Below are positions 32,468 to 36,260 of a stretch of DNA of 64,000 nt, in pieces. Both the position numbers and the translations under genes were made by a program. Position 1 is the first letter of the stretch. Each line of letters starts with the position of its first letter. Origin of the DNA: Oricola cellulosilytica. Its GTDB lineage: Bacteria; Pseudomonadota; Alphaproteobacteria; Rhizobiales; Rhizobiaceae. Location: NCBI RefSeq assembly GCF_019966575.1, contig NZ_JAINFK010000003.1, forward strand, positions 62,001 to 126,000, written 5' to 3'. The notes beneath the pieces are model-generated. The model saw only the letters and a program-made list of their open reading frames with translations, ran no database searches and was not told where the DNA came from.

Positions 32468-34000
32468 TCACAACGGAATGTTGTCGTGTTTCTTCGCCGG
32501 GCCGTCGACCTGCTTGCCCTTCAAGAGCTCGAACGCCCGCGCCACGCGGCGGCGGGTCGAATGCGGCATGATCACCTCGTCGATGAAGCCGCGCTGGGCG
32601 GCGATGAACGGGTTGGCGAAGCGATCCTCGTATTCCTTCGTGCGCGCGGCGATCTTTTCCGGATCGCCGAGTTCGGAGCGGTAGAGGATTTCGGTCGCGC
32701 CCTTGGCCCCCATCACCGCGATTTGCGCCGTCGGCCAGGCATAGTTGACGTCGGCGCGAATGTGCTTTGACGCCATCACGTCATAGGCCCCGCCATAGGC
32801 CTTGCGGGTGATGACGGTGACCTTCGGCACGGTCGCCTGCGCATAGGCGAACAGCAGCTTCGCGCCGTGCTTGATGATGCCGCCATATTCCTGGCTGGTG
32901 CCCGGCAGGAAGCCAGGCACATCGACGAAGGTGAGGATCGGGATGTTGAAGGCGTCGCAAAACCGCACGAACCGCCCTGCCTTCTTCGAGGAATCGATGT
33001 CGAGGCAGCCGGCGAGCACCATCGGCTGGTTGGCGACGACGCCGACGGTGGAGCCGTTCAGCCGGATGAAGCCCGTCAGGATATTCTTCGCGTGATCTTT
33101 CTGGATCTCAAAGAACGACCCCTCGTCGGCGACCTTGGTGACAACCTCGTGCATGTTGTAGGGCTGGTTGGCGTTGGCCGGCACCAGCGTGTCGAGGCTC
33201 GGCTCCAGCCGGTCGGCGGGATCGGCGGTCGGGATCGCCGGCGGCTTATCGCGGTGCGAGGCCGGCAGCAGGTCGAACAGGCGGCGCACCTCCAGCAGGG
33301 TCTCGACGTCGTTCTCGTAGGCCCCGTCGGCGACCGACGATTTGCGCGTATGGGTCGACGCGCCGCCCAGTTCCTCGGCCGTGACGATCTCGTTGGTGAC
33401 GGTCTTCACGACGTCCGGGCCGGTGACGAACATGTAGCTCGTGTCCTTCACCATGAAGATGAAGTCGGTCATCGCCGGCGAATAGACCGCACCGCCCGCG
33501 CACGGCCCCATGATCACGGAAATCTGCGGGATGACGCCCGACGCCTGCGCATTGCGCCAGAATACCTCGGCATAGCCGCCGAGCGAGGCGACACCCTCCT
33601 GGATGCGCGCGCCGCCGGAATCGTTCAGCCCGATGATCGGCACGCCGTTCTGCATGGCCAGATCCATCACCTTGCAGATCTTCTCCGCGTGCGTTTCCGA
33701 CAGCGAGCCGCCGAACACCGTGAAATCCTGGGAGAACACATAGGCGGGACGGCCATTGATCGTGCCCCAGCCGGTGACCACGCCGTCGCCGGGGATCTGT
33801 TGCTCGCCCATGCCGAAATCGGTGCAGCGGTGCGTCTTGTAGGTGTCGTATTCCTCGAACGAGCCCTCGTCGAGCAGTACGTCCAGCCGCTCGCGGGCGG
33901 TCAGCTTGCCCTTGGCGTGCTGGGCCTCGATGCGCTTGCGCCCGCCGCCGAGGCGCGCCTCCTCGCGATGCTGTTCGAGCTGTTCGAGAATTTCCTGCAC
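32468..34000 (-). CDS. pccB: Propionyl-CoA carboxylase beta subunit (carboxyltransferase)
   Basis: 510 aa, transferring CO2 from carboxybiotin to propionyl-CoA. [40 protein letters not shown] (acyl-CoA oxyanion site) and [17 protein letters not shown] lie in the N-half. [21 protein letters not shown] and [12 protein letters not shown] (carboxybiotin side) lie in the C-half. The start is a GTG at 34000 preceded by GGGAGGGG at suitable spacing. No regulator of the PccR type is next to it; the divergent neighbour is instead the N-oxygenase-like gene, 283 bases away. Confidence 0.96.
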
Positions 34001-34283
34001 CGCACGCCCCTCCCGTTTTCACTTCGCGTCCAGCGGCTTATTGGCAAAACCTGCGGTCGAAGGTCAATCGCGTCTTTCGCATTACGAAATCAGTCTAGAG
34101 GCTTTCGCGGGAGGAGGAAATGGGACCGGCGATCAGCGGACTATCTCCGCTTCTGCCTCTTGCGGCGGCGCCGGCATAAACGCCAATTGGGCGGTTTGGT
34201 TCCCGTAATTCCTCACGGAACCGGCTTCGCTTCTCATCCGTTCAAGGGCAGACCTCGACAGAGGGCCGACGGAGATTTCGAAG

Positions 34284-34949
34284 ATGACCGACACACTAGC
34301 AGGACGGCAGTTCCACTCGTTCGTCAAGAGCGCCGAATTCCCGTGCGTCGGCGCGAAATCCGCGCTTGCCCGCGATGCGCTGACGATGTTCGAGGCGGGC
34401 GCGATAGACAGCGCCGCATGTGACGTCGACATCTATCGGCAGCTATGCGCCTTCGGCGAGAGCCTCGACCCGGACAGCCCGGTGGTCCGGTCCTTCGTCG
34501 TCATCTTTTCGGGCCCCGATGACCTCGACGAGGAGACGTTCGAAAAGACCCTGTGGAACAGGCTGCAATGCCTGCACAATCTCGACGTGGTGGGCGGAAA
34601 GGACTGGAACGGGACGGTCGATCACGATCCGGAGTCGCCGCATTTTTCCTTCAGCCTCGGCGGCGAACCGTATTTCGTCATCGGGCTGCATCCGCAATCG
34701 TCGCGGCCGGCCCGGCGCTTCCGCCATCCGGCGCTGGTTTTCAACTCGCACAACCAGTTCGAGAAGCTTCGTGCCGACGGCCGCTTCGACAAGATGAAGG
34801 AGATCATCCGCAAGCGCGACGCCGAGCTTGCCGGCGGCGTGAACCCGATGCTCAGCGACTATGGCGACGCCTCGGAAGCGCGCCAGTACAGCGGCCGGGC
34901 AGTCGACGGCACGTGGAAATGCCCGTTCTCCTTCGTGGAGGCCGCATGA
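34284..34949 (+). CDS. YqcI/YcgG-family heme-dependent N-oxygenase-like protein (GntA-like)
   Basis: 221 aa. Family blocks are clear: EFPCVGAKSALAR (18-30), FSGPDDLDEETFEKTLW (75-91), IGLHPQSSRPARRF (133-146), LVFNSHNQFEKLR (151-163), and NPMLSDYGDASEARQYSGR (187-205). The best-known member, GntA, is a heme enzyme that N-hydroxylates a guanidino amino acid in guanitoxin biosynthesis; most members are uncharacterised. The ATG has GGAG 9 bases upstream, and the stop overlaps the next start (ATGA), so it is tightly coupled to a DUF1989 gene. No guanitoxin genes are nearby, so the substrate here is unknown. An N-oxidation of an amine or guanidine is the reasonable guess. Confidence 0.85.
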   Translation: MTDTLAGRQFHSFVKSAEFPCVGAKSALARDALTMFEAGAIDSAACDVDIYRQLCAFGESLDPDSPVVRSFVVIFSGPDDLDEETFEKTLWNRLQCLHNLDVVGGKDWNGTVDHDPESPHFSFSLGGEPYFVIGLHPQSSRPARRFRHPALVFNSHNQFEKLRADGRFDKMKEIIRKRDAELAGGVNPMLSDYGDASEARQYSGRAVDGTWKCPFSFVEAA

Positions 34950-35530
34950 TGGAGCGGATACCGCCGCGCAGCGGCACGGCGTTCGAATTGCGAAAGGGAC
35001 AGTTGCTCACCGTGGCCGATCCGGAAGGCGAACAGGTGTCGGACATGGTGGCGTTCCACATCGCCGACACGAGGGAATACATCTCCTCGGGACGGTCCAT
35101 CGATTACGCCGGGCGGCTGTTTCTGACGACCGATGACATCCTCTATTCCAACCGGTCCAACCCGATGCTCACCATTGTCGAGGACGAGGTGGGACGCCAC
35201 GACTTCACTCTGACGCCCTGTTCGCGGGACACCTTCCGCATCATCTATGGCGACGACGATCCCCATCACGGCTGCCAGGGCAACCTTGAACAGGCCCTGG
35301 CGCCTTGGGGGATCGGGAGCGACGACATACCCATCGCCTTCAACGTGTTCATGCATGTCGCCGTCGATTCCGAAAGCGGCCAGCTCACCGTTCTGCCGCC
35401 TAAAAGCAAGCCGGGCCAGAAGACTGTGTTCCGTGCCGAAATGGACCTCGTGGTGGCGCTGACCGCGTGTTCCGCCGGGCAGTCGAACAATTTCCGCTTC
35501 AAGCCGATCGACTACGCCATCAGCGGCTAG
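34946..35530 (+). CDS. DUF1989 (urea carboxylase-associated) family protein
   Basis: 194 aa. The family pattern is complete: GRLFLTTDDILYSNRSNPML (56-75), TIVEDEVGRHDFTLTPC (76-92), HHGCQGNLEQALAPWGIG (107-124), PIAFNVFMHV (129-138), and AEMDLVVALTACSAGQSN (164-181). Cys92, His107-His108, Cys110 and Cys175 are candidate metal ligands. Some DUF1989 proteins form carboxyguanidine deiminase in guanidine degradation. No urea or guanidine carboxylase is nearby; the gene is instead coupled by ATGA to the N-oxygenase-like gene. A role in hydrolysing or deiminating the N-oxidised product is attractive but is inference. Confidence 0.87.
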   Translation: MMERIPPRSGTAFELRKGQLLTVADPEGEQVSDMVAFHIADTREYISSGRSIDYAGRLFLTTDDILYSNRSNPMLTIVEDEVGRHDFTLTPCSRDTFRIIYGDDDPHHGCQGNLEQALAPWGIGSDDIPIAFNVFMHVAVDSESGQLTVLPPKSKPGQKTVFRAEMDLVVALTACSAGQSNNFRFKPIDYAISG

Positions 35531-35632
35531 CGTGCGCGGCAGTCGCACTCGTTGACCGCACCTATCCTCTCGACAGCTCGTCCCCCTCGACGAAAATACC
35601 TTTCCGGGGCGGACTGGCGGATGCTGGACTGC

Positions 35633-36010
35633 TCACGTGAAAATCGCGTACAGCTCCGCAACCCCTATCAGCCCGATCAATATCGCGGATATCGCCTTGA
35701 GCGCCTTGACGTTTCGCGCCTTGATCCCCTTTCCAAAGTTGGTCTGGGCCATCTCGGTATCCAGGTCGGCGATCAAGTTCCTGACGTCTTCCAATGCCGT
35801 ACTGCCGGCCAGAATGCCAAAAGCCGTCACGGAAATCACCAGCATGGTCAGCGGGGCGGAATAACCTTCCGGACCGAGTTCGATGATTGCGGCAAGCCCG
35901 ACAAAGGCGAAGATCGTCGTCCTCATGACGTCGAAATAGTGCGTCTGCCGCGCGAGCGACAACGTGCTGCGGATCTGAGAGTCCATTTGCCTGCCCCCAA
36001 GGGAATTCAT
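35633..36010 (-). CDS. Membrane protein of unknown function, 125 aa
   Basis: Family not recognised. Three hydrophobic segments: FVGLAAIIELG (about 36-46), APLTMLVISVTAFGILAG (52-69) and AISAILIGLIGVAELYAIF (106-124). An acidic amphipathic stretch ALEDVRNLIADLDTEMAQTN separates the last two. The start may be ATG 36010 (GGAAG upstream) or ATG 35986 (GGGGGCAGG upstream). It is convergent with the DUF1989 gene and 92 bases downstream of ccoS, so it may sit at the end of the ccoGHIS transcript by position only. Confidence 0.7.
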   Translation of the reverse strand: MNSLGGRQMDSQIRSTLSLARQTHYFDVMRTTIFAFVGLAAIIELGPEGYSAPLTMLVISVTAFGILAGSTALEDVRNLIADLDTEMAQTNFGKGIKARNVKALKAISAILIGLIGVAELYAIFT

Positions 36011-36101
36011 TTCCCGCTTCCGAGATTACCACGGCTTGCCAGGACAGTCCTGAGAAATTGCGGACGGTAGGCGATGCGCCGCGGCGCCTTCATCGACCGC
36101 C

Positions 36102-36260
36102 CTAAGCTTTCGGCCGCTCGTCCACCTCCTCGCCGAGGATGCGCTCGGCTGCGCCGTCGAGGTCGGAATACTGGCCGGAGCGGATCGACCACAGGAACGC
36201 GGCGAGGCCGAGTGCGCCAAGGCCGAGCGCCACCGGAATGAGATAGATCAGCACGTTCAT
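36102..36260 (-). CDS. ccoS: Cbb3-type cytochrome oxidase assembly protein CcoS (FixS)
   Basis: Small membrane protein of 52 aa. It starts MNVLIYLIPVALGLGALGLA, with one transmembrane helix, then FLWSIRSGQYSDLDGAAERI, the conserved CcoS block, and ends in VDERPKA. CcoS is needed for heme b and copper incorporation into cbb3 oxidase. The ATG overlaps the ccoI stop (ATGA), the usual last position in ccoGHIS. Confidence 0.93.
   Translation of the reverse strand: MNVLIYLIPVALGLGALGLAAFLWSIRSGQYSDLDGAAERILGEEVDERPKA

Follow-up and report, generated by a model that had tools for sequence, protein, structure and literature searches.

A conserved YqcI/YcgG–DUF1989 gene pair with an EcfG-type promoter: a candidate two-enzyme module in the general stress response

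In a 64,000-nucleotide stretch of the genome of Oricola cellulosilytica (contig NZ_JAINFK010000003.1, positions 62,001 to 126,000; hereafter the window), a gene for a GntA-like protein of the YqcI/YcgG family is directly followed by a gene for a DUF1989 protein. The two genes form a conserved unit, and in Alphaproteobacteria this unit is, judging from its upstream sequences, very probably controlled by EcfG, the sigma factor of the general stress response. We propose, with a probability of roughly 0.6, that the pair is a two-enzyme module of this response. It looks like an uncharacterised unit of stress metabolism, and not like the toxin pathway from which its database name derives.

Conservation of the gene pair

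The pair is intact, in the same order, on the same strand and closely spaced, in 111 of the 120 loci compared (a Hymenobacter locus is counted among the 111). These pooled loci are not all independent; they leave out L015 (which shares a contig with L030), repeats from the own genome and the distant family hits L020–L023. The DUF1989 start, taken in each case as the one nearest the oxygenase stop, lies at most 20 bases from that stop in 107 of the 111 pairs, and in 55 the genes overlap by 4 bases. The ATGA overlap described in the first-pass annotation is confirmed in the window's sequence, and the adjacency is far from unique to this genome.

Several surveys point the same way. Within the same taxonomic family, a relative of the first gene was found in 11 of 151 genomes, and in neither of the two other genomes of the genus. 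DUF1989 follows directly in six of these 11, i.e. the window's genome and its five closest relatives (at least 49% identity), and not in the five distant ones (at most 43% identity, one on a short contig). Among 444 relatives in the genome_contigs collection, DUF1989 is directly downstream in 77 of the best 80. A GntA-type gene occurs in 22 of 398 Pseudomonadota genomes (23 copies), and some DUF1989 gene in 110; a profile of the cassette DUF1989 scores at least 229 bits in exactly 22 genomes (next score 134), which are the same 22, and in all of them the DUF1989 gene directly follows the oxygenase gene on the same strand (coordinates matched by eye, only the best few candidates per genome scored). 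In the plasmid collection, an oxygenase gene adjoins each of the 14 best DUF1989 matches (at least 53% identity, next 37%; best 60 of 511 records), and 14 of the 17 plasmid oxygenases of at least 38% identity have an adjoining DUF1989 (by eye). Among the hosts are Novosphingobium, Skermanella, Comamonas, Chryseobacterium and Deinococcus. Such reciprocal co-occurrence (22/22 genomes, 14/14 plasmid places) across classes and phyla, while the surroundings change, makes it hardly credible that the two are chance or hitch-hiking neighbours.

In a test of limited sensitivity, no third gene conserved with the pair was detected in 97 loci. ORF (open reading frame) calling was poor: it recovered the oxygenase as a single cluster in only 57 of these loci, recovered DUF1989 in 47, and produced antisense shadows in 31 and 20; the biggest cluster besides these reached 13 loci, and a third gene confined to a minority of loci would be missed. 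As to spread by viruses, fourteen stretches in the viral_contigs collection matched a pattern, and none of the 14 encodes a relative. On a Hymenobacter plasmid (L106, 6647–7135) the DUF1989 frame is split in two pieces next to an intact oxygenase frame, and on a Chryseobacterium plasmid (L163) the pair is flanked by restriction genes and by genes for DNA ligase D and cyanophycin synthetase.

The two predicted enzymes

The first protein matches PF08892 (YqcI_YcgG) at 1.4e-59 (201.9 bits, cut-off 27) and the GntA model NF041366 with 267 bits (cut-off 145). By computation it has the sandwich fold of AglA, and profile alignment equates its Cys21 with Cys44 of AglA, the axial heme cysteine, which is kept in 54/54 sequences. 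Characterised YqcI/YcgG members are reported to hydroxylate guanidine nitrogens, and ChmN hydroxylates free arginine with ferredoxin and a reductase (PMC10849742). Very probably the first protein is a guanidine N-oxygenase as well. The label gntA, 'guanitoxin biosynthesis', is found on 14 of 23 plasmid records; since a DUF1989 of the present subtype adjoins the gene in 11 of these 14, NF041366 seems to over-call.

The second protein has the DUF1989 fold, with PF09347 (3.3e-56) as the sole domain match over its 194 residues. Cys92 and Cys110 are kept in 46/46 sequences, Cys175 in all 45 readable ones and His107 in 42/46, which is consistent with a predicted three-cysteine zinc site. The first-pass annotation had named Cys92, His107, Cys110 and Cys175 as the place to look for a metal site; these residues are present, as is the cysteine expected to bind the heme, and a check of the cofactor sites in both proteins gave no refutation. 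In the loci examined this subtype never occurs without the oxygenase, and its C-terminus reads CSAxxSN where the other DUF1989 proteins compared mostly have CPQ-type endings. It could not be upheld as a strict clade: a quick tree of 28 cassette and 14 other sequences places a single divergent sequence from Rhodococcus within the cassette group (support 0.897); Asp53 is also found in one of the 14 non-cassette sequences.

Known DUF1989 enzymes deiminate carboxyguanidine (CgdA/CgdB; PMC11410670, PMC11271267) or, in the case of Tdm, act on an N-oxide. The window protein scores 114.1 bits against UAAP2 (cut-off 284.7), 79.9 against UAAP1 (cut-off 205.95) and 72 against NF053776, the model for trimethylamine N-oxide (TMAO) demethylase (cut-off 1100). 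Tdm entries were absent from the 50 matches listed for it, which excludes nothing. At L155, L157 and L161 two DUF1989 genes are neighbours, one of which has lost residues of the metal site, an arrangement resembling CgdA/CgdB. It is conceivable, though rather unlikely, that the cassette DUF1989 protein is itself a partner of the oxygenase (in a complex, or in metal or heme handling), or makes an N–N or other bond instead of hydrolysing one. DUF1989 proteins may indeed have inactive cognates (PMC11271267), and YqcI/YcgG enzymes have been proposed to supply rearranging partners, such as ChmN for ChmM (PMC10849742). Unlike the degenerate neighbours at the three loci just named, however, every readable cassette DUF1989 keeps the metal-site cysteines.

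An EcfG-type promoter upstream of the pair

A feature added here to the earlier description is a promoter of the general stress response type. EcfG promoters have been given as GGAAC-N16-CGTT with a flexible -10 element (PMC7083833), GGAAC-N17-20-GTT (PMC6599016) or GAAC-N16,17-C/GGTT (PMC4814048). A strict pattern, with CGTT and a spacer of 15–18, was fixed before the relatives were inspected; 25 of 96 upstream regions (each at most 400 bases long; the window, one duplicate contig and distant family hits included) contain it, compared to 21 of 6072 background pieces. In a set of 85 regions the strict pattern is present in 22, against 22 of 16024 background windows and 4 of 557 regions preceding other ORFs. 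With the -10 element relaxed to CGT, a step taken only after inspection of sphingomonad upstream regions and to be held against the result, these figures become 61/85, 83/16024 and 11/557. The position is also constrained, as 52 of 62 motifs lie 117–132 bases upstream of the FPC codon.

Among 104 alphaproteobacterial loci (for two of which the title gives no class; L019, L015 and distant family hits left out), CGTT is found in 24, CGT in 64 and either CGT or NGTT in 79; this widest pattern has no matched background, and 73 of the 6072 pieces, each 400 bases long, contain GGAAC-N15-18-GTT. Outside the Alphaproteobacteria all three patterns are absent from the 14 loci, 11 of which carry the pair. 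This contrast fits the motif's being an EcfG promoter, because EcfG is reported to be exclusive to that class (PMC3892343). In the genome, one locus holds genes for an HWE kinase, PhyR, NepR and an extracytoplasmic function (ECF) sigma factor; from its place in this locus the sigma gene follows to be EcfG, and a strict motif is found about 35 bases upstream of phyR. A second strict motif, GGAAC-N16-CGTT, is located in the same intergenic region as that of the pair on the opposite strand (34179–34203, minus) and faces the carboxyltransferase gene at 32468–34000.

Proposed function and alternative explanations

In the module that we propose, EcfG would switch the pair on under stress, and the ATGA overlap would have the two products made in a fixed ratio. 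Supplied with electrons by a general reductase, the heme enzyme would use O2 to hydroxylate a guanidino nitrogen of a small molecule, the likeliest being L-arginine or a close derivative; arginine itself is a possible substrate, with the odds against it. The DUF1989 enzyme would bind the N-hydroxyguanidine at its zinc, followed by hydrolysis of the deiminase type (compare carboxyguanidine deiminase) or by an N–O rearrangement (compare TMAO demethylase). That it acts on the product of the oxygenase is the option we favour, with some reserve; the substrate, the product and the sequence of the steps are all inferred from the families. DcsA and DcsB form a precedent for an oxygenase working with a hydrolase. 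A bolder version, which we consider improbable, is a NO-synthase-free stress route present in several phyla, in which the guanidino nitrogen of arginine would yield nitric oxide (NO), nitroxyl (HNO), hydroxylamine or a hydroxyurea-like product that protects the cell or restrains growth.

Several observations weigh against the proposed module. Even the widest motif was not found in 25 of the 104 alphaproteobacterial loci, and it is absent from the Sphingopyxis (0/3), Novosphingobium (0/2) and Sphingobium (0/2) loci. The species bearing it are not independent, 39 of the 104 loci being from Sphingomonas. In the window's genome the strict pattern is not enriched (133 occurrences, 121 in the reversed control), which leaves its conservation among related species as the basis for claiming a promoter. 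With respect to the enzymes, the substrate residues of AglA are partly kept, Gln177 and Arg179 being replaced by Asn154 and His156, and valine or proline takes the place of His107 in 4 of 46 DUF1989 sequences. Pairwise identities of the two partners correlate (r 0.88, 6105 pairs), a value without a control, much of which common descent alone would yield. Finally, the oxygenase lacks DUF1989 in 9 of the 120 loci (L019, L083, L095, L100, L131, two Streptomyces, one Rahnella and one Pseudoalteromonas) and hence can stand alone.

In four of these, the Methylobacteriaceae-type copies L083, L095, L100 and L131, the genome encodes a DUF1989 of the subtype elsewhere (323–328 bits), so that these lone oxygenases look like extra copies; those of L083, L095 and L100 (Methylorubrum/Methylobacterium) carry a strict EcfG-type motif. 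The lone oxygenases do not make up one outside group, since the Rahnella copy groups with both copies from Streptomyces and L019 falls beside Deinococcus. The oxygenase of the Rahnella plasmid (L165, 5941–11226) opens a different row of genes (SDR, 2Fe-2S protein, LysE, tRNA-ligase-beta-like, MOSC), perhaps another guanidine N-oxide pathway. The three haloarchaeal and Rhodococcus plasmid DUF1989 genes looked at (34–36% identity) have no annotated oxygenase in the stretches examined, for which the gene table is incomplete. Near a YqcI/YcgG gene of Priestia, no DUF1989 is annotated. In Bacillus subtilis, ycgG presumably lies near ycgI.

Nitrogen acquisition or detoxification would be another use for the same chemistry: free guanidine or an agmatine-like compound would be oxidised and then deiminated by the DUF1989 enzyme, as an O2-driven substitute for the ATP-driven guanidine carboxylase and CgdAB. 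The activity of CgdA/CgdB on carboxyguanidine agrees with this, and such a route could be useful to a genome in which no urea/guanidine carboxylase passes the cut-off (best TIGR02712 score 556.5 bits against 1303.85, matching two end regions of the model only). The promoter is of the stress type, however, no transporter or other third gene was seen to be conserved with the pair in the limited test above, and the region 33500–36200 has no Rfam match to a guanidine riboswitch or other RNA up to E 1; we regard this route as unlikely. The classical guanidine carboxylase route likewise misfits this genome, because it has one DUF1989 gene, a carboxylase score under the cut-off and no riboswitch near the pair. 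A single arginase-family gene is found elsewhere in the genome.

Very improbable is a role in guanitoxin or other specialised metabolism, with a true gntA and the pair as a remnant or a part of a scattered cluster. The NF041366 score and the gntA label that NCBI gives to many relatives speak for it. On the other hand, many genera outside the cyanobacteria carry the pair, often with a stress-type promoter in front of it, the 97 loci revealed no conserved third gene within the sensitivity of that test, and the genes around it belong to other processes, as listed below. None of the matches listed for the ten window neighbours scanned belongs to a gnt family (the remaining genome was not searched for gnt genes), in line with the first-pass annotation, which had noted that the window has neither a guanitoxin cluster nor a urea or guanidine carboxylase.

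Genomic surroundings

The features of the locus are collected in Table 1. The genome of 3.7 Mb has one YqcI/YcgG match and one DUF1989 match in total. In the mechanical ORF list the DUF1989 frame reaches upstream to a GTG at 34553; given a second ATG at 34949, the true start may be 34946 or 34949.

Table 1. Features of the YqcI/YcgG–DUF1989 locus (window coordinates)
Feature	Position	Strand	Remarks
EcfG (general stress response)-type promoter, GGAAC-N17-CGTT	34217..34242	+	Putative; ends 41 bases upstream of the gntA-like start codon
YqcI/YcgG (GntA-like) gene	34284..34949	+	ATG start, 221 aa; predicted thiolate-heme guanidine N-oxygenase, axial ligand Cys21
ATGA start/stop overlap of both genes	34946..34949	+	Read in the sequence
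DUF1989 gene	34946..35530	+	ATG start, 194 aa; predicted Zn site Cys92/Cys110/Cys175 with Asp33 and His107

The ten neighbours scanned include genes for a biotin carboxylase and a carboxyltransferase, which we read as a propionyl-CoA-carboxylase-like (acyl-CoA carboxylase) pair, a methylmalonyl-CoA mutase, a glutathione-dependent oxidoreductase and a FixH/FixG/P-type ATPase group. None of them indicates guanidine chemistry. Between the pair and the latter group, a predicted protein of 125 residues without Pfam or NCBIfam match is encoded on the minus strand (35633–36010).

Relation to known systems

Searches of the literature, with subscription papers and supplements outside their reach, found among the papers listed none that joins YcgG with DUF1989 or the Pfam/InterPro numbers of both families, none that links 'urea carboxylase-associated' proteins with heme and arginine, and none that joins stress-response terms to YqcI or guanitoxin; a prior description is possible. 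Main-text literature on the EcfG regulon, as available and with supplementary regulon tables outside the search, yielded no mention of the pair as a target. If this widespread subtype is truly linked to stress, guanidine N-oxidation would enter ordinary bacterial stress physiology, beyond natural-product pathways. A branch of the DUF1989 family would gain a function, and the database label under which bacteria of soil, leaves and the sea now count as bearing a guanitoxin gene would be corrected.

The pair resembles the targets of the PhyR–NepR–EcfG regulon in promoter type and distance, and the core locus of that system is present in the genome. The first protein belongs with AglA and the YqcI/YcgG heme guanidine N-oxygenases (GntA, ChmN, DcsA, Mhr24 and AmbT, with GrbE as a homologue), whose characterised members are part of natural-product clusters in the literature covered. 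In contrast, the present subtype is coupled to DUF1989, is often preceded by a stress-type promoter, and has Asn and His at the positions of AglA Gln177 and Arg179; from guanitoxin GntA it differs in that the surrounding gnt genes were not found (ten window neighbours and 97 loci covered), despite passing the NF041366 cut-off. The second protein shares family and cysteine metal site with the carboxyguanidine deiminase CgdA/CgdB (UAAP1/UAAP2), but it is the single DUF1989 of its genome, scores far under the UAAP cut-offs and has no accompanying urea/guanidine carboxylase over the cut-off. With Tdm, which acts on an N–O substrate, it shares the aligned residues C263/C279/C343, H276 and D198 (C92/C110/C175, H107 and D33 of the window protein), whereas it has no GCV_T domain, is 194 residues long compared to a model of 763 positions, and does not keep Tdm D346, the proposed iron ligand.
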